This document shows positions 50,857 through 60,012 of a stretch of 60,235 nt of DNA, one piece after another. Made by a program: the position numbers and the translations under genes. The stretch lies in NCBI GenBank assembly GCA_947629175.1, contig CANRCT010000017.1:1-60235 (forward strand), in the 5' to 3' direction. The notes under the pieces were generated by a model. That model was not told the DNA's origin. It saw nothing but the letters and a program-made list of their open reading frames with translations, and did no database searches. Positions within the stretch are counted from its first letter, which is position 1, and every line of letters starts with the position of its first letter. Origin of the DNA: an uncultured Muribaculaceae bacterium (GTDB lineage: Bacteria; Bacteroidota; Bacteroidia; Bacteroidales; Muribaculaceae).

Positions 50857-52983
50857 TTACTCCGACTTTGCCTTGATCTCCCACTGGATCAGCGTATTCT
50901 CGTCGTCAGTCACTTTAACGTAATCATCCGGCTGGTAAACGGTTTTCGTTTCAAAGTTGCAGGCTTTGCCTGAGAATCTTCCGCTCTTGATCACGATAAA
51001 GCCTACCGGAAGATTGACGTCGTTGTCGTCGCTTACGATGCAGCTTGTGCCTTCACACATGTTATCGCGTTTGTTGGGGCTGTAGAACTCTCCTCCATCT
51101 ATGATAAATGTACCGTTATTAGTGGCGTAGACGGGATAGAAAGCATCAGTTTTGCCGGGGTTATTCTCCGTATAGTACTTTCCGCCTTTAAGGGTGAATT
51201 CACCCTCTTCGCCTGAGATACCACCCTGCACTCCCTTCACCTCGCAATCGGTGAATACTCCCGACTTACCGAACACACGTATGCAGTAAGCCCAGTGCTG
51301 TCCATTATAAATATTGGAGGATGTGCTCTCGAATCTGGAATTTGTTGCTGTTACGGTAGATTGGTTGGCTCCTTCTCTGCCCATGCCGCAAAGTGCGTAC
51401 ATGCCTGACTTGATGGTCGTGTTCTCAATGGTGATGTCGCAGGCTCCCCAGTATGAAACGGCAGAAGAGTTATAGGTTTCTCCATGCCAGTGGTGATTGA
51501 GGTCGTTGACAAGAGTGACGTCGCGCAGGGTCAAATTGGCATCCTTGACATGAATGAGCGATTTGGAGACTCTCTCGGTAGAGGCGCGTGAGGATCTGGC
51601 TGCGAGGGCGCTTTCTGCATCGGCGTTGGTTACTGTGCCGCCCTCTATGGTCAGGTCGTGACGCTCGGTATAGAAGAATTGATCGCCGGGGAGTACTATC
51701 TTCGAGCCCTCGGTCATGATGATGGTCTTGTCGGTGGTCAGGGTGAGGTCTTCGGCGGTGGCGTTGGTCAGGTCGATGGTGCCGTCGATGCATATCTCCT
51801 TGCGCTCGTCGTTCTTGAACAGAGGGAGGAAGTGGTCGGCGTCGCCCGCTATCTCGAGGTCTCTGTCGTTGCCCTGCCACTTGTAGTCGATAACGATGTC
51901 AAACTGGTCGGAGGTCTCGAGCACGCGGCCGAGTATGTTGGTGCGGTAGTTGCGGCGCACCGGCAGGGAAGTGGCTATGATGGTGTTTTTCTTAGCACCG
52001 TCCTCGCTGGTGAATTCAAACTCGGCGTCGACTGTCATGTCTTGTCGGCGTCCGGCCAGTATGTAGGTCATCGATACCCAGCGATACTGTGTGCGCACCA
52101 GCTGCGTCGCGATATCGGTGTGGGGCACGGTGAGCCATTTCATCTCTTCCTTACTCTCGTCGGGCTGCAGGAAGGCAGCCGACTCGAATGTGATGGGGCC
52201 CTCCGTGCGTGAGTTGAGATCGGTGAAGCCGGTGAGTATGTCGAGCTTGTTGGGCAGACCCTTGATGGTGACTTTCGACTTGGAGTAAATGGCTTTGCCG
52301 CCGTTGGCCTCGACCATGCTCTGCCACTTCTCCTTGTCGGCGCCAACGTTGATCTGGGCCACGGCGCGGGTGAGCGTCACGGTCTTGGCCTGGGCGTTGG
52401 TGTTGCCGGAGGAATGATCCACGTTGATGTGGCCCGAGAAGGCGTTCATGAAGAGCAGGTTGTTGCTCGCGACTTTGGAGTAGTCCACCTCCACGGCGCG
52501 CAGGTCAATGTCTTTGCCGTTGTCGAAGTCCTTTTTCCATATGCCGGCGGTCTCGGCCTCGGGGTTGATGGCGAAGAATGCCACCACGTAGCTGGCGCCG
52601 GTAGGGAGGGAGAGGTTGATGGATGCCTGTCCGTTCACGAGGTTTACCACCTTGTTGCGCTCGAACACTGGCACTTTGTCGGTGCCGCTCGACACGTCGC
52701 CCTCGATAATGGCGTCGCCGTCGGTGTTGACATCGGAGAGGTCGCGGTAGTAGGCGTTGTAGTAGAGGCGTGTCACGCCGGCATCGCCCACGGCACCTAC
52801 GGTCACGTTGGTGGAGCCTTCGCCATCGGCGCGCGAGGTTGGGTTAAGGGTCTCTAAGCCCACGTTGATGGAGTAGCTGACGGTGGCTGCGTCGGTGTCC
52901 TGCACGAGTTCGTCGTGCTGGGAGCATCCGGCGAGCATGGCTGCCGCCGCGAGGGCCGCAAGGCCCGGATGTAGTTTTCGCAT
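50857..52983 (-). CDS. Large fimbrillin-like surface lipoprotein with beta-helix C-terminus
   Basis: 708 aa. Lipobox MLAGC with Cys20, then an N-terminal fimbrial domain (about 25-375). It ends with the DUF6562-like motif SLPVRRNYRTNILGRVL. From about 390 on, repeated short strands (IDLTNATAEDLTLTTDKTI, LIHVKDANLTLRDVTLVND, CDITIENTTIKSGMYAL) suggest a parallel beta helix, as in pectate-lyase-like or adhesin tips. This combination of fimbrial anchor and long helix would suit a tip or accessory adhesin. Third gene of the operon behind the poly-C switch, 79 bp after the preceding lipoprotein. Confidence 0.75.
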   Translation of the reverse strand: MRKLHPGLAALAAAAMLAGCSQHDELVQDTDAATVSYSINVGLETLNPTSRADGEGSTNVTVGAVGDAGVTRLYYNAYYRDLSDVNTDGDAIIEGDVSSGTDKVPVFERNKVVNLVNGQASINLSLPTGASYVVAFFAINPEAETAGIWKKDFDNGKDIDLRAVEVDYSKVASNNLLFMNAFSGHINVDHSSGNTNAQAKTVTLTRAVAQINVGADKEKWQSMVEANGGKAIYSKSKVTIKGLPNKLDILTGFTDLNSRTEGPITFESAAFLQPDESKEEMKWLTVPHTDIATQLVRTQYRWVSMTYILAGRRQDMTVDAEFEFTSEDGAKKNTIIATSLPVRRNYRTNILGRVLETSDQFDIVIDYKWQGNDRDLEIAGDADHFLPLFKNDERKEICIDGTIDLTNATAEDLTLTTDKTIIMTEGSKIVLPGDQFFYTERHDLTIEGGTVTNADAESALAARSSRASTERVSKSLIHVKDANLTLRDVTLVNDLNHHWHGETYNSSAVSYWGACDITIENTTIKSGMYALCGMGREGANQSTVTATNSRFESTSSNIYNGQHWAYCIRVFGKSGVFTDCEVKGVQGGISGEEGEFTLKGGKYYTENNPGKTDAFYPVYATNNGTFIIDGGEFYSPNKRDNMCEGTSCIVSDDNDVNLPVGFIVIKSGRFSGKACNFETKTVYQPDDYVKVTDDENTLIQWEIKAKSE

Positions 52984-53062: not shown

Positions 53063-54013
53063 TCAGATGATTATGTTGATGTCGCCGCTGAAGTCGACGT
53101 CGATGTCGATGCCGCCCTGGTCGCGCACGGTGAGAAATGCGCCTCTCACAAGGGTGTTGACTCCGGGTGCTATGGGCACATTGACCACGGGCGATATGGC
53201 ACGCCTCACTCCGGAGGGGGTTATGAGGTAGGCCTGCACCGACACGGCGCTCTCGCCGCCAGAGGTGAACACGTGGTCGAAGCCGAGCGAGGCCTCCGTC
53301 TCGGAAATGCGCCGGAGCGAGCCGGCGTAGGTGATGGAGGTGACGGAGTTGTAGTTTAGGCCGAGAAAGGCGTTGTAGGCGGTGGTGAGATAGCCGGTGT
53401 AGACAAACTCCACGCGATAGCCTTCGAGGCCGGCGTCGGCGCTCTCGTCGCGCAGGAATTCGGCGAGGTCGGTGGCCACGAACTCATATCGAGCCACGGG
53501 CCGGACAAGCTGAAGCGTCAGCGATCGGTCGGCGGGATGCATGGCGATGCCGCCGCACATGGCGTCGCGGCTGTCGTCGCAGGCGGGATAGGGCGAGGTG
53601 GTCAGCTTCACCTCGTTGAGGCGAGAGGCGTCGTAGTGGAGCGGTCGGCCGTCGGATCCGATGCCGTCGGCCCATACCCAGAGCTCCACTTCGCCGGAGG
53701 GTCGATCGAGGGTTATGGTGAAATCGTCGAGCGTGGCCGGCCGCGTAATCACTTGCTCGGTGAGGGGGGCGGCGTTGAAGTGCTGGGCCATGCCAGGAGG
53801 GTAGGTGCGCACCACATAGCGCATCATTGTCGCGGAGGCGCGGGTCGCGGTTTCCACCTCGTGGGTGCGTGTTGTCCAGTCGGCGGGATGGGCTATGCAC
53901 ACCTCCAGAGTGTTCTCGAGGCCCGGGTTGGTGTCGGGCGGCAGCTCGTGGACGCAGGCCGATGCGATGACAGCTATGGCCGTCAGAAACAGGGGAGTGA
54001 GCCGTCGGGTCAT
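53063..54013 (-). CDS. Fimbrillin-like lipoprotein (DUF6562/DUF5119 type)
   Basis: 316 aa. Lipobox IASAC with Cys20. The beta-rich body begins LEVCIAHPADWTTRTHEVE, carries LDRPSGEVELWVWADG and LVRPVARYEFVATDLAEF, and ends in the strand pattern VNVPIAPGVNTLVRGAFL and IDIDVDFSGDINIII. These fit fimbrial subunit or anchor lipoproteins that follow DUF3575 genes in Bacteroidales. Its ATG overlaps the DUF3575 stop by 4 bp (ATGA), so translation is coupled to the gene that contains the poly-C tract. The exact Pfam family is uncertain. Confidence 0.72.
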   Translation of the reverse strand: MTRRLTPLFLTAIAVIASACVHELPPDTNPGLENTLEVCIAHPADWTTRTHEVETATRASATMMRYVVRTYPPGMAQHFNAAPLTEQVITRPATLDDFTITLDRPSGEVELWVWADGIGSDGRPLHYDASRLNEVKLTTSPYPACDDSRDAMCGGIAMHPADRSLTLQLVRPVARYEFVATDLAEFLRDESADAGLEGYRVEFVYTGYLTTAYNAFLGLNYNSVTSITYAGSLRRISETEASLGFDHVFTSGGESAVSVQAYLITPSGVRRAISPVVNVPIAPGVNTLVRGAFLTVRDQGGIDIDVDFSGDINIII

Positions 54014-54686
54014 CGGCGGCCTCCTTTCTTAGGGCTGAGGTCAAAGATCCGGCCTATCGACACGGCCACGCGGTCGATTCCGGCCCAAACGCGGCTGCGA
54101 CTCTCCAGGCGCGGGCCGTTGCAATGGTTGGCAAAAACGTCATATTTAGTCGAGTACACTCCGGCGCCAAGGCTCACTTCAAGAGTCCAGCGGCCGGAAC
54201 TCCCCATCGGGCGACGCCACCCGGCGCTGATGCCCGCCCCCAGAGCCGGGCGCGTGTCCTGATAGCGGCGCGAGCCGCCGAAAGCCACGTCAAACCAGGC
54301 CACGCCCAGATGCGGGCCTACCCACCAGCCGTGAGCAGACGATTTGCCGAGCCACACCCGCAGGGTGGGCTGAAGCGTGAACGTGCGGAATTTCAGGTCG
54401 CCTCTGAAATAGTTGAAGCCGCTGTAATACAGCGGCAGAGAGGCTGAAAGCCGTCCCTGGAGGGTGATCTCCGGCTCGGCGTTGATCATCAGGAGGGCCC
54501 ATGCCGGGGCGTTGGTAGATATGACGAAACGGCACGGTTGTTCGCCGTGCTTGCGTAATGTCTTGTTAATTAGTGGTTTATCGGGGGGGGGTAGCCACTG
54601 ACATTGTCCCCAACTTCGGCGCTAACGCCGAGAGAGCAGAGGAGAGCTAATATGATGAGGCGAGTGGCTGGTGTCAATAAAGGCAC
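54010..54686 (-). CDS. DUF3575 outer-membrane protein, out of frame at a poly-C tract
   Basis: The long in-frame part (ATG at 54489 to 54010, 159 aa) matches the DUF3575 family: LPLYYSGFNYFRGDLKFRTF, then TLQPTLRVWLG and a C-terminal VAVSIGRIFDL. Family conservation extends upstream of that ATG (VISTNAPAWALLMINAEPEI), so 54489 is not the true start. A GTG at 54684-54686 opens a frame with a good signal peptide (RLIILALLCSLGVSA) ending in the tract C9 (54583-54591). With nine C, this frame stops at TAA 54570-54572 after 38 codons. Ten (or seven) C would join it to the barrel, giving about 225 aa, the normal size. A perfect promoter lies 44 nt upstream of the GTG. The gene is OFF as assembled. 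Confidence 0.82.
54583..54591 (-). repeat. Homopolymeric C9 tract, candidate phase-variation switch
   Basis: Nine C on the minus strand, placed 12 codons after the predicted signal-peptide cleavage site of the DUF3575 gene. It is the longest G/C homopolymer I noticed in the window. Upstream and downstream coding frames differ by exactly one base across it. Confidence 0.85.
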
Positions 54687-54729
54687 TGTGTAATGGGTGT
54701 TTTTATATAATTCTTAGGTTTTGCGTCTG

Positions 54730-54761
54730 CAAAGGTAACCCTTTTTATCCATCTCCGCAAA
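54730..54761 (-). promoter_or_regulatory. Promoter of the fimbria-like operon
   Basis: Minus strand TACCTTTG (54730-54737) and TTTG (54758-54761) with a 20-nt spacer, a full consensus match. Transcription should begin near 54725, 40 nt before the GTG at 54686, which supports that start. Confidence 0.8.
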
Positions 54762-55126
54762 ATCCGGGCTCGATTTCCTGTCCCTAAATAGGGGTCAGAG
54801 CCGGCGACAACGGGATGCGGAGAGGTTCGGCTCCGATTTTTGGGTTTTTTAAGTTCTTTTATGGCTGAAAGCGAAAGCCTTTTTTGCCCGGCCGATTGTT
54901 GTCTATACTGAACCGCATGATAAGTGTGATGCTATTTTAATGTGACGCACCAACGGGACTGAATGATATTCTACATCCCTCGTCCCTGTTGATCGGGTAG
55001 TGATACCGGGCTGCAGGGCTCTCATAAATAAATAGTTGAAACGTGAGAGGGGGAGACGGCCGAGCCGTCTCCCCCTTTGCGGTCAATGCTCCGGATAGAT
55101 GGAGCTGACGTTGAAATGTCAGTGGA
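54762..55126. other. Non-coding region between the fimbria-like operon and ychF
   Basis: About 365 bp with no plausible gene. One hairpin, GAGCCG (54798-54803) with CGGCTC (54828-54833), is followed by T-rich sequence on the plus strand, though no plus-strand gene precedes it. A second, very strong hairpin lies at 55049-55075. Confidence 0.5.
55049..55075. terminator. Strong hairpin downstream of ychF
   Basis: GGGGGAGACGGC-CGA-GCCGTCTCCCCC, a perfect 12-bp stem with a 3-nt loop, 52 bp after the ychF stop. TTT follows on the plus strand; on the minus strand there is no immediate T-run, so termination of ychF is likely but not certain. Confidence 0.6.
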
Positions 55127-56290: not shown

Positions 56291-56353
56291 CTCCCCCGCC
56301 GGCAAGTAATCCCCGGGCGCCTCGCGCCGGTGAGGCATTCTGCTTCCGATATA

Positions 56354-56487
56354 CCTCTCCCTGCGGCTCTTCTACGAAGAAGCAGCCTATGCCCGTCCGC
56401 TATCCCCACCAAGGCATCGCTCCGCGCGCCATGGCGGGGTTAACCGAGGTCACGCGGTCTCCGACCTCTCCCGCCTCGCCCCGGATG
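56354..56487 (+). repeat. Left arm of a diverged inverted repeat
   Basis: About 120-130 bp starting CCTCTCCCTGCGGCTC and containing CCCCACCAAGGC, GCCATGGCGGGG and GGTCTCCGACC. The same blocks occur in the same order on the opposite strand at 56955-57074. No plausible gene overlaps it; the short frames it opens are shadows of the repeat. Confidence 0.7.
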
Positions 56488-56526
56488 GGTTGTCGCCATC
56501 CCCCTCCCGCAGGAGCCATCATCCAT

Positions 56527-56722
56527 GCTGTAGGGCTTTACCCCAGATGCAGCCGCCATCCCGCCCTCCCCTAGTGCATCCGCTCCCTCGTTCCCTATGG
56601 GTTGCCGCCCTCGGAGCCGCTCTCATTCCGGCTGTAGGGCTGTACCCCCGGTGCAGCCGCTCCCTCCGTCCAGGTGCAGTCGCCATCCCGTCCGTCCGGT
56701 TTGCCGCCATCGGAGCCGCGGA
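56527..56722 (+). repeat. Tandem GC-rich palindromic repeat units
   Basis: A 30-bp element with core GCTGTAGGGCT-TACCCC and end TGCAGCCGC occurs at 56527-56556 and 56631-56660 (27 of 30 identical, period 104 bp), with a partial third copy after it. Each element can fold (GGCTGC-type ends pairing, inner GGG/CCC). Flanking GGGTTG(C/T)CGCC and GGAGCC blocks recur too (56487, 56600, 56698), so the unit is about 100 bp. Confidence 0.65.
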
Positions 56723-56954
56723 GCGGGCGGAGCACTGGTAACCGGGGTTCGGAGCGCAGCGGAGGCCCCGGACAGCATCAGGTCCTCCCCGTTCGGCCGA
56801 GCCCCGGAGGGCGCGGGATCAGCCGCCTGGCGTCAGCGTAGGCTCCCCCATAAGAGTGTCACAGTAGCCACATTCCGGCCCGTATGCTGTCGCCCCGAGC
56901 CAGCCCTGACATCACGCATTGAGCATCATTCCATCCCATCGCTATCGCATCGCC

Positions 56955-57074
56955 ATCGGGAGTGGTCGGAGACCACGCCACTTTTGTTATCCCCGCCATG
57001 GCGGGCGTAGCCACGCCTTGGTGGGGGCACCGCGCGACCACGCTCGGCCTCTTCGTAGATGAGCCGCAGGGAGA
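56955..57074 (-). repeat. Right arm of the diverged inverted repeat
   Basis: Minus-strand copy of the element at 56354-56487, sharing CTCTCCCTGCGGCTC, TCTACGAAGA, CCCCACCAAGGC, GCCATGGCGGGG and GTCTCCGACC in order with diverged spacers. The arms enclose about 470 bp holding the tandem units. From 57075 to 57288 I see no gene; the last 70 bp turn AT-rich. Confidence 0.7.
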
Positions 57075-57288
57075 GTGCCTCGATACAGCAGCGGGCCGGA
57101 TGGCGCGGGGGGATCGCTCCCTCGTCGTCTCTCCGGCCCGGCGGCATTGGCCGGCGCAGTCGTTTCTCTCAAGCTTAATCAATCGGATGGAATCTGCTCC
57201 TCACTCCGCGCCGGCCCGATAGAAAAACCACCTATATTGATTTGTGATTAGTTCGTTTGATCTATTCATGATATGATAATATTCAAAA

Positions 57289-57972
57289 TTATAGGAGTTT
57301 ACCTATGATTCTGTTTACGGCTATAGGTCCCCATAGTCGTGAATCATCCGATGCCTTACGGTTGTCACCCATCACAAATATAAAATCGTCAAGAGCTATA
57401 AACGTGGAGTCAACCGAATCGAAACGGAAATCTCTGTTATACATCATCTGATCGATCTGGCAGGTGCTGAGTCTACGGCAATCTATTCTGCTTCCTTTTT
57501 GCGGTATTATAGTAAACAGTTTTGCTAGGCTACTCAAAGATGCGGTATCGACATAGCAGTGAAGCGAGTCGCCGGCAATTGCCACGCATCTTTTTATCGC
57601 GAGAAAACGATCATTGCTAGGGATATTGATAGCTACTATGTCATCTCTTTCCGGCAGACGGCGTCCAGTGTAGCTGAAAGATCTGTCGACCGCAAGAATA
57701 GAATCAATATGTCGATCATCATAGAGCAGCGATGCTATGTAGCCGGCCCATCCGACTTCATAGACATTGCGTGGACTTCGGAAGCCTCCCACCCAACGGT
57801 TGACAATCACAGTCTGTCCATTTTCAAGAGTGGGATACATGGAGTTGCCTCTGACAACAAATGTCTGTATATAGAACGTCTTTATGAGTATAACCCCGGC
57901 AAGCATCATAATCCCGCACAGAAGCATGACCATATTACTCCGATTGAAGATAACGCAGAGTCGTTTTTTCAT
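57289..57972 (-). CDS. Small type I signal peptidase of the NVEALA cassette
   Basis: 227 aa from the ATG at 57972. One membrane helix (about residues 14-40, MVMLLCGIMMLAGVILI) precedes the catalytic box VVRGNSMYPTLENGQTVIVN, with Ser44 as nucleophile. Lys127 lies in RFLAIKRCVAIAGD, and FVMGDNRKASDDSRLWGPI is the last box. It is shorter than the housekeeping LepB at 4687-6135 and visibly AT-richer than most of the window. It overlaps the preceding lipoprotein gene by about 38 bp, the last gene of a likely operon with the NVEALA peptide, whose precursor it may cleave (inference). Confidence 0.85.
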   Translation of the reverse strand: MKKRLCVIFNRSNMVMLLCGIMMLAGVILIKTFYIQTFVVRGNSMYPTLENGQTVIVNRWVGGFRSPRNVYEVGWAGYIASLLYDDRHIDSILAVDRSFSYTGRRLPERDDIVAINIPSNDRFLAIKRCVAIAGDSLHCYVDTASLSSLAKLFTIIPQKGSRIDCRRLSTCQIDQMMYNRDFRFDSVDSTFIALDDFIFVMGDNRKASDDSRLWGPIAVNRIIGKLL

Positions 57973-58507
57973 AAAGTTCTTCCAACTTTTTGTTGAGTAG
58001 CGGATTTCCGACAAGCCTTATTGTGTCAAACGCATCGCACAGGATGGCTTGGAATCTGTCATCCTCGATTTTGTTGTAAAATGTGAAATCACCCATAGGA
58101 TCATATATCCACGCACGCTTCCATAATCTCCCTACAAACGCCTCAGTTGCATCGTCGAAATCAGATGATGTGATGACTGCCATGATCGGAAGAGCATGAT
58201 GATGACGTCGTTCGAATCTGCCGGCAAAATCTTCCCAGTATGCAAACTTTGATATGCATACACTGCAATCCAGGTCAACGTTGAATATTATTTTTGCGTG
58301 GCTCTGCATTATTTCGCCTATTGTAAGACTATCTGGGCGTATGGCGCACAGGCTGTCAGGGAGCACTACATGTGATCCGATGATCTCCCGCAGTCTCGTT
58401 TCTGAATATTGCTTCCATTCCGTGGTTGAACCATTGTCGGACCCGCTGCCGCAGGCGATGGATATCGCGCACAATAGCGACAGCCATGGATAACGCTTAC
58501 AGCTCAT
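57935..58507 (-). CDS. Lipoprotein with a CxxC thioredoxin-like motif
   Basis: 190 aa from the ATG at 58507 (58528 is an alternative). Lipobox ISIAC puts the lipidated Cys at residue 19. The mature part has IIFNVDLDCSVCISKFAYWE, with a Cys-Ser-Val-Cys pair in the position of a thioredoxin-fold active site, then LPIMAVITSSDFD and a C-terminal VGNPLLNKKLEELYEKT. Proteins like this accompany BF3164-type lipoproteins in Bacteroidetes; a role in disulfide handling of the Cys-containing NVEALA peptide is possible but unproven. It overlaps both neighbours. Confidence 0.72.
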   Translation of the reverse strand: MSCKRYPWLSLLCAISIACGSGSDNGSTTEWKQYSETRLREIIGSHVVLPDSLCAIRPDSLTIGEIMQSHAKIIFNVDLDCSVCISKFAYWEDFAGRFERRHHHALPIMAVITSSDFDDATEAFVGRLWKRAWIYDPMGDFTFYNKIEDDRFQAILCDAFDTIRLVGNPLLNKKLEELYEKTTLRYLQSE

Positions 58508-59597
58508 AACGCAGGACGGTATACCCATCGGTTGATGACTCGGTCAACGCATACAGATATTTCTCGTCAGGTGTGACTGCAATATGTTTCACACAATGAT
58601 CGAGTGATATCTTACGGCACAGATTGCCTTGACGGTCATATACATTTACCTGTCGGGTTCCGCTACGGTGTGTATCCCTGAAAAAGTCAGTATTACGCAT
58701 CTCCGCATCCGACAAGCCAATATACAACTGGAACACATGTTCGTTACTCAATGTCAGATCTTGAGAATATAGCATGGATTTGTCAGTGAATATTCCTTGC
58801 ACATAGTCAGATCCTGCATTCATTATGAATATGTCATTGGGTAATGCTTTCTCAAAATCATACGAGACTATAGAGTCGCCATTGATTGCCACCAATGTGA
58901 GAATATCTGCACCACTATAAACAGCAGCAGCAAACTGACCGTTAGGACTGACCCTAATGATCGGTCCGTATAGATCAATGTGCGCGATGTCTGTCAATCT
59001 TTCGTCAATCAATTTCTTATCCGGATAAGTGCCGACCATCTTAAACACTGTCCCATCCTTGTTGATTAAGGCTAAGCGCCCTGCTTTAGAATGGTTTGCA
59101 GCAATATAGATATCATTGGCCATACGTCCGATATAGCTGCTTAATGCAAGGTCAGTAATTGCATCTGTGGTATCCGTTTCATTTGAGGTAGGATCATAAT
59201 CCGTTGTAATTATATACCCGTCTGCACCTGATTCCGTTATTTTGAATAGCACATGCTTTAGAATATCAGGGACATAAAACGCTTTTGTTCTATCGTCATA
59301 TTGTATACTTTCTATAAATAACGCTTCATCCGGCCCCTCTCCTTTTTTTAATAAACGGGCATATGATTTCCCCTCGTTATCGAAAATATCTATAAGAGTA
59401 TCAGCTTTAGATGTATTGGAGATTACGAGCATCTTTCCTGTCGACATCATCCATCCGGGGGATGTCAGGACTGAATCATTCAGAAACACTTGAGAACTCA
59501 ATGACTCTTCTATTATTGTATTTTCTTGTACCCTTTGACATGATGCTAAAATGACTACCGACAATATCGAGAGTAACCAGATACTATTTTTTGACAT
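58497..59597 (-). CDS. BF3164-type TolB-like propeller lipoprotein
   Basis: 366 aa from the ATG at 59597. Lipobox VILASC with the Cys at residue 20. The rest is a repeating four-stranded pattern fit for a six-bladed beta propeller: DIFDNEGKSYARLLKKGEGPDEA, IRVSPNGQFAAAVYSG, IAVTPDEKYLYALTES. The GEGPDE motif is the hallmark of the BF3164/TolB_like_N family. It is probably attached to the outer membrane; ligands are unknown. A 184-bp palindromic spacer separates it from the NVEALA gene. Confidence 0.83.
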   Translation of the reverse strand: MSKNSIWLLSILSVVILASCQRVQENTIIEESLSSQVFLNDSVLTSPGWMMSTGKMLVISNTSKADTLIDIFDNEGKSYARLLKKGEGPDEALFIESIQYDDRTKAFYVPDILKHVLFKITESGADGYIITTDYDPTSNETDTTDAITDLALSSYIGRMANDIYIAANHSKAGRLALINKDGTVFKMVGTYPDKKLIDERLTDIAHIDLYGPIIRVSPNGQFAAAVYSGADILTLVAINGDSIVSYDFEKALPNDIFIMNAGSDYVQGIFTDKSMLYSQDLTLSNEHVFQLYIGLSDAEMRNTDFFRDTHRSGTRQVNVYDRQGNLCRKISLDHCVKHIAVTPDEKYLYALTESSTDGYTVLRYEL

Positions 59598-59627
59598 ATT
59601 CGTTGATAAATTGTTTTGATTAATCCA

Positions 59628-59720
59628 ATAAACCGGTTTATCGGTACAGGACATGCTTTTACAAGCATCCAGTCACTCTTGAGTGCAAGGGCGACCTAAA
59701 ATACCCTGTACCAATAAACC
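59628..59720. repeat. Nested palindromes in the NVEALA-propeller spacer
   Basis: GGTTTATCGGTACAGG (59635-59650) pairs with CCTGTACCAATAAACC (59705-59720), a 16-bp stem with one mismatch. The left end also forms a perfect 14-bp palindrome ATAAACCGGTTTAT (59628-59641). Inside are two more hairpins: ATGCTT/AAGCAT (about 59653-59668) and CACTC-TT-GAGTG (about 59674-59686). CCAATAAACC also recurs as a direct repeat (59625, 59711). Confidence 0.7.
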
Positions 59721-59743
59721 AGTTGATCATTGTAGAATTGCCA

Positions 59744-59777
59744 CGATGGAGATCATTTGAACAAATGGCCTCCATTG
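59744..59777 (-). other. Long hairpin directly after the NVEALA stop codon
   Basis: 16-nt arms (59744-59759 and 59762-59777) around a 2-nt loop, with three mismatched or wobble positions, starting 4 nt after the stop codon. No T-run follows on the minus strand, so it looks like an mRNA-stabilising or processing structure rather than a full terminator. Confidence 0.55.
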
Positions 59778-59781
59778 TGCT

Positions 59782-60012
59782 TTAGAATTGCATCACAGCT
59801 CTACCTGTGCTGGTTAGTTTGATTCCCTCCTCATTATTGGTAATCGTGCAGGTTTGATCGTTTGAGCAATCACAGATCGCTTCTCCTGCTGACAGACCTA
59901 CGGTCTCGATGTTTTCGAGAGTAAGGTCATCCGCTTTCTCGGGAGCCTGCGGACTGTACACATAGGTTCCAACGCTTGCTGCGCAAGCGAGCATGAAAAA
60001 TAGCTTTTTCAT
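59782..60012 (-). CDS. NVEALA-family small exported peptide
   Basis: 76 aa. An N-terminal KKLFFMLACAASVGTYVYS segment is the export signal. DLTLENIETVGLSAGEA corresponds to the NVEALA signature (usual form LANVEALA) that marks this Bacteroidetes family of small secreted proteins. The C-terminal part has three Cys (48, 50, 55; CDCSNDQTC), as many members do. The function of NVEALA proteins is not established; a cleaved, secreted peptide is the usual assumption. The region upstream is very AT-rich without a clear TAnnTTTG. First gene of the cassette. Confidence 0.8.
   Translation of the reverse strand: MKKLFFMLACAASVGTYVYSPQAPEKADDLTLENIETVGLSAGEAICDCSNDQTCTITNNEEGIKLTSTGRAVMQF

Follow-up and report, generated by a model that had tools for sequence, protein, structure and literature searches.

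Neisseria, Bordetella, Helicobacter and Campylobacter are well known for switching surface genes through changes in the length of repeat tracts, and the repeat tracts of the Helicobacter pylori SabA adhesin gene are also found in coding sequence. In Campylobacter jejuni, 29 poly-G/C loci of at least seven bases were reported for one genome, and tracts located within reading frames toggle the respective genes (PMC4965091). In the order Bacteroidales, random switching affects surface genes of the kinds described here, including those for SusC/SusD proteins and fimbriae of B. fragilis, and depends on DNA inversion (PMC8748976, PMC12632263); in the parts of PMC11868660 consulted, Bacteroides is mentioned in connection with inversions and invertible promoters and also with a temperature-dependent shift. 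DNA inversion has so far been the main explanation for random switching among gut Bacteroidales. For a polysaccharide locus of B. fragilis, a frameshift at a run of C was described, and slipped-strand mispairing was put forward as one way in which variation could arise (PMC3090145). Here, we describe a tract of nine C residues (C9) in a stretch of 60,235 nucleotides from an uncultured Muribaculaceae bacterium (contig CANRCT010000017.1 of assembly GCA_947629175.1), which is referred to as the window. The tract is located at the junction between the signal peptide and the mature part of a DUF3575 protein, which is encoded by the lead gene of a fimbria-like operon. Judged from the sequence, C9 probably functions as a slipped-strand contingency switch, to which we assign a probability of roughly 0.8.

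The operon promoter and the beginning of the gene are located on the minus strand. The -33 box TTTG (54758-54761) is separated by a spacer of 20 nucleotides from the -7 box TACCTTTG (54730-54737), and both match the Bacteroidota promoter consensus. A GTG start codon (54684-54686) opens the signal-peptide segment VPLLTPATRLIILALLCSLGVSAEVGDNVSG (54594-54686), which has a score of 3.15 according to a hydropathy rule devised for this analysis; a signal-peptide-like start with a score of at least 3.0, located 20 to 60 codons upstream in a given frame, is found at 0.5% of random points. The segment is followed by C9 (54583-54591), which corresponds to G9 on the plus strand, where it is followed by TA (54592-54593), and which is the only C/G run of more than six bases within the 60-kb window. 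All the elements that an earlier note on this DNA had named, from the consensus promoter through the GTG codon and the signal peptide to C9, were located between 54761 and 54583 on the minus strand. The note had calculated that translation stops after 38 codons with nine C and that ten or seven C would yield a protein of normal size; its frame arithmetic is correct, and the stop is found at 54570-54572. C9 is a pure repeat placed where a change in length shifts the reading frame, and since the DUF3575 domain sits past the tract in the frame that is offset by one base, the assembled copy of the gene is out of frame. The open DUF3575 frame (54010-54621, minus strand) comprises 203 codons, its first start codon is an ATG at 54489, and the match to the PF12099 (DUF3575) profile begins near 54531. 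This match reaches 82.5 bits compared with a curated cut-off of 21.1, and the score increases from 69.4 to 82.5 bits once the residues preceding the ATG are included. The match then begins 14 residues upstream of the ATG, which agrees with the claim of the note that conserved sequence starts well before it. In an alignment with two relatives, the ATG falls within a conserved N-terminal stretch, and a protein started there would lack conserved residues as well as the signal peptide. The stop codon of the DUF3575 frame overlaps the start of the next open reading frame (ORF) as ATGA (54010-54013), an overlap that had also been pointed out before.

Such a gene could be explained by a one-off frameshift in the course of decay. 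The window gene is indeed out of frame as assembled, and a second DUF3575 gene of the same genome (locus L028, G000:C6:49000-55500), which has a G10TA tract in its promoter (L028:3082), carries a frameshift away from any homopolymer; due to these two frameshifts, two of the five DUF3575 genes of the genome read as broken. Decay is nevertheless highly improbable, as the 203-codon frame is open and has a good profile score, the locus has kept its promoter and its overlap with the gene that follows, and the same arrangement is found in and out of frame among congeners. DNA inversion, on the other hand, requires inverted repeats and a recombinase. Between 54000 and 55200, no inverted repeats with arms of at least 12 nucleotides flank the promoter, the sole match being a hairpin of 13 nucleotides at 55048-55076, and an invertible promoter was therefore discarded for this locus.

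Tracts at the same position were identified in nine genes of congeneric genomes, where they are located in or just past the signal peptide of TonB-dependent receptors. Together with the window gene, ten surface genes with a junction tract were found. Six of them are in frame (L196, L205, L219, L278, L285 and L291), whereas the window gene and three receptor genes (L197, L211 and L266) are out of frame. The filter did not pick up L211 and L266, which were added by eye, and a number of frames were left out because they did not belong to surface genes with a signal peptide or looked spurious (L206, L220, L221 and L290, in frame; L302, L267, L273 and a second frame of 158 codons in L205, out of frame). 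The Plug and carboxypeptidase-regulatory-like families were matched in nine of the nine congener genes, and the receptor barrel family was also matched in six of them within the fetched part. In in-frame and out-of-frame copies alike, the receptor frame is open for more than 800 codons up to the end of the locus. The tracts of L266 (G10, out of frame) and L278 (G9, in frame) belong to one genome and differ by a single G, with flanks that are 77% identical over 317 nucleotides; in L266, the receptor frame also has an ATG slightly ahead of the tract and with no signal peptide. Together with the occurrence of this tract class at surface genes, the presence of in-frame and out-of-frame receptors favors the homopolymer phase switch that the note had proposed.

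The same set of genes bears on two further explanations. Slippage of the ribosome or the polymerase on the C run could constantly yield some full-length protein without any change in the DNA: a homopolymer of this length could permit slippage, and the downstream frame is kept open. Transcriptional slippage is described as typically occurring on at least eight nucleotides, a length that C9 reaches, but usually on runs of A or T (PMC3711429). Constant slippage is very unlikely, as the congeners hold both in-frame and out-of-frame copies. Homopolymers are also prone to errors, and the genome consists of 79 contigs, so that C9 could have been misread during sequencing or assembly. In the same assembly, however, runs of nine bases are present in the genes for MnmE (L032, G000:C12:16156, 525 amino acids) and Der (L045, G000:C63:8297, 439 amino acids), both of which are in frame and of full length, and three further assemblies also contain out-of-frame junction tracts; an error is therefore extremely unlikely. 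Tracts within coding regions were also seen by eye in two ORFs of another kind, a membrane acyltransferase-like ORF with an internal G9 in frame (L026, G000:C1:14237) and a sugar acetyltransferase-like ORF with an internal G9 out of frame (L302, genome G016). Judging by these two ORFs, polysaccharide modification may be switched too.

The tract of the window belongs to a genome-wide class, which, with its TA flank and its promoter class, goes beyond the scope of the earlier note. In the own genome, C/G runs of exactly seven, exactly eight, exactly nine and at least ten bases were found 17, 9, 15 and 7 times, respectively, while a first-order Markov model predicts 307 runs of seven and 77 runs of eight. 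A T follows the G run in 3 of 17 runs of seven, 6 of 9 runs of eight, 11 of 15 runs of nine and in all seven longer runs. The dinucleotide TA is found after 17 of the 22 own-genome tracts of at least nine bases, including the tract of the window, compared with around 4-5% of the runs of one to four bases, 8% of those of five and 5% of those of six; the runs in MnmE and Der are among the five tracts without TA. The non-random features are the shortage of runs of seven and eight, the TA flank and the positions of the tracts. The latter were analyzed for 79 tracts of at least nine bases from four genomes, namely 22 of the own genome, 20 of 21 of G028, 18 of 18 of G017 and 19 of 19 of G011, which were not selected by their flank, whereas the sets of G007, G013, G006 and G016 were selected by TA. 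When read on the G strand, 53 of the 79 tracts were directly followed by TA (about 5% expected). A region from -350 to +120 nucleotides around the start of a signal-peptide-bearing ORF, as judged by the simple hydropathy rule of this analysis, contained 43 of these 53, compared with 12 of the 26 tracts without TA; of 4680 positions drawn at random from the same loci, 17.7% fell into such a region. The TA tracts thus show the enrichment at exported or surface genes that characterizes phase-variable loci. Across 34 genomes of the genus, 436 tracts of at least nine bases were found; summed by hand, the exact pattern G9TA occurs 161 times and the reversed pattern 74 times, the latter of which is not a neutral control, as AT often precedes promoter tracts. 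In an order-wide scan of one flanking base, which was evaluated by eye, the T flank was not general in other Bacteroidales families. The long G/C runs therefore form a separate, lineage-specific population, which is placed at surface genes in three settings: promoters, leaders and signal-peptide/mature junctions.

DUF3575 genes illustrate this placement. The own genome and nine congeners contain 35 DUF3575 matches, and 30 fetched loci, which do not include the window, were examined. A run of at least eight bases was present at 17 of the 30 loci, and 18 of 18 runs were accompanied by TA, in both orientations. Of the five DUF3575 loci of the own genome, four, among them the window, carry a tract, which is located in the promoter of two loci and in the coding sequence of the other two; the fifth (contig C16) has none. 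The congener G007 encodes an intact DUF3575 protein of 233 amino acids, which shares 37% identity and the same overlap with a DUF6562 gene; in place of a coding tract, its operon has G9TA and a -7 box in the promoter. Tract lengths range from 8 to 13, with one tract of 19, and they differ in 23 of 36 non-identical pairs with similar flanks, which are not independent, as some loci are represented twice. Pairs with near-identical flanks and the same tract length (43), mostly one and the same record, were excluded. Within one genome, L267 and L273 have tracts of 11 and 9 bases and flanks that are 95% identical (L267 contains N).

The promoter tracts share a common layout, which consists of TTAAC-N5-TTAAC, a run of 8-12 G, TA and a -7 box. 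The pattern G8-TA-N15-22-TAnnTTTG was matched 68 times in 25 of the 34 genus genomes, compared with two matches of the reversed pattern, and family-wide in 167 of 247 genomes, with six reversed matches in all (control by eye). In 74 of 104 distinct cases, the 22 nucleotides preceding the run contained TTAAC, compared with 0.27% of the 22-mers in the G+C-richer window; two half-sites were present in 59 cases, 50 of which have a spacing of exactly 10 bp. Within 50 nucleotides past the run, 24 perfect -7 boxes were located at distances of 18-22, 28-30 or 38-41 nucleotides and one further box at 4 nucleotides, and the distance classes are about whole helical turns apart. With one mismatch allowed at one fixed spacing, 24 perfect and 7 imperfect sites were found, five of the latter with an interrupted run, and the reversed control yielded three. 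A scan of named genomes assigned the pattern largely to Bacteroidales among the matches listed; some records came from other groups, which may be due to chance or mislabelled bins. Many genes behind promoter tracts open with a signal peptide, as seen by eye. At the tract of the window, a plus-strand promoter remnant (TTAAT...TTTATC-G9-TA-N17-CAACTTCG) was considered and rejected: it has two mismatches in the -7 box, and its position weight matrix score has a p value of 0.23 in an AT-rich background. In the third setting, TAC9-11 on the gene strand is located around 80-210 nucleotides upstream of large ORFs starting with MKKLLL- or similar (L031, L037 and L041 of the own genome; L224, L229, L230, L232 and L233 of G028), with no clear -7 box nearby. 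An association of C-type leader tracts with the -7 box was discarded, as TAnnTTTG was present within 45 nucleotides upstream of the run in none of 43 tracts, some of which are promoter tracts viewed from the opposite strand, and within 60 nucleotides downstream in 2 of 52. In addition, compound tracts of around ten T directly joined to G9-11 were seen by eye in G028 (L218, L221 and L226).

These properties could also be those of a fixed-sequence operator that lies close to the 5' end of a surface gene, is bound by a protein and switches nothing through its length. The fixed TA on one side, the occurrence in both orientations, the predominant length of nine and the vicinity of promoters and gene starts would suit a binding site. 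Such an operator is unlikely, however, as the lengths range from 8 to 13 (once 19) and vary from one similar copy to another, and as 24 perfect runs compare with 5 interrupted ones. An operator of fixed length would also not give rise to out-of-frame junction tracts, which were seen in four of ten genes. A different role for a protein is tentatively suggested: the G tract with its TA edge (GnTA) could be a lineage-specific element, used in either orientation and equally in promoters, leaders and coding sequence, that is recognized by a dedicated factor, which keeps or makes tracts of 8-12 G or binds them. This idea is rather doubtful; if it held true, the family would possess programmed homopolymer contingency loci instead of tracts that arose singly.

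Several observations speak against a slipped-strand switch. Length differences were seen between paralogues and orthologues only, with one genome per species, and 13 of the 30 DUF3575 loci have no run of at least eight bases, although one of them, L249, comprises only 73 nucleotides of upstream DNA. The window tract consists of C on the gene strand, whereas those of the nine receptors consist of G, and the runs of L266 and L278 are followed by TG instead of TA. Moreover, the conservation of TA is not predicted by simple slippage, and the 22 C/G runs of at least nine bases in the own genome compare with 19 expected from the Markov model. As the model predicts about as many, the raw count of long runs is uninformative, and an excess by raw count was discarded as an argument.

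According to the proposed mechanism, a change in the length of C9 would bring the exported DUF3575 surface protein in or out of frame, the assembled copy being out. Loss of the frame would probably also lower the expression of the downstream genes, because the DUF3575 stop overlaps the DUF6562 start. For tracts located in promoters, a change in length would alter how far the -7 box lies from the direct repeat of TTAAC. The window tract would then be one member of a lineage-wide GnTA contingency set. The sequences directly show the frames, the tract positions, the TA flank, the congeners in either frame state and the length differences between copies with similar flanks, whereas slippage within living populations and an influence on expression are inferred.

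The overlapping second gene of the operon (53063-54013, minus strand) encodes a DUF6562 protein (PF20200, 3.4e-52); its counterpart in the congener G007 gave an additional match, to PF08842, the Mfa1/Mfa2 anchor family. It is followed on the same strand by an ORF of 708 amino acids (50857-52983), which has a lipoprotein-like N-terminus by eye and a weak DUF6562-like match below the family cut-off and is probably the third gene of the operon. Fimbrillin profiles gave no match in these three ORFs. The earlier note had described the DUF3575 protein as a barrel. A fold predicted from an input of three sequences is indeed beta-rich, with ten strands, the first of which (residues 30-37) precedes the ATG (residue 45); as the confidence is low, with a mean predicted local distance difference test (pLDDT) score of 60.9, the barrel itself is weakly supported and can be considered likely only. 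Elsewhere in the window, a cluster at 57289-60012 comprises a peptide of 76 amino acids with cysteines and a signal-peptide-like start, which has no Pfam match, ORFs of 385 and 197 amino acids and an S26 signal peptidase; it may be akin to NVEALA-type peptide clusters. A G+C-rich region without a clear gene (56300-57200) resembles by eye the sequence around the tract near position 3228 of L034, with a short run of G in place of the G9 of L034.

Among the matches listed in a search of open-access PubMed Central, no paper on homopolymer switching in Bacteroidales was found by title or start of abstract, and PMC10994844, PMC4060949 and PMC6421346 did not contribute anything on the subject. Within the sources at hand, a tract-switch system was thus not found described for this order, apart from the possible slippage at the B. 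fragilis polysaccharide locus; that proposal concerns one locus with a run of four C, and a tract class, a promoter class and a TA flank are absent from the part of the account that was accessible (PMC3090145). Within the same phylum, a phase-variation mechanism was reported for adhesin genes, the FSD genes of Ornithobacterium hominis, and is left unspecified in the accessible text (PMC13183296). In Neisseria meningitidis, repeat tracts in the promoters of porA and nadA vary the expression of surface proteins in a similar manner (PMC3639595, PMC2791445). These two switches belong to another phylum and another promoter type. We know of no fixed TA flank in either of them and of no conserved flanking dinucleotide at the poly-G/C loci of Campylobacter jejuni. 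Repeat tracts in the promoter region are also described for the SabA adhesin gene of Helicobacter pylori, which differs in lineage and in its repeats (PMC2715451). The C-stretch of the Bordetella fim2, fim3 and fimX promoters resembles the tracts described here in that its length alters transcription (PMC1891110); it is located in the promoter, whereas the window tract is located in coding sequence, and the promoter class of the Muribaculaceae differs from it by the TTAAC direct repeat, the Bacteroidota -7 box and the usually fixed TA. If tract length indeed determines whether many of the surface receptors and fimbria-like operons are expressed, out-of-frame copies would be open to misreading as pseudogenes, and DNA inversion would be joined by a second, homopolymer-based system, which extends across a gut family and has a promoter architecture of its own.
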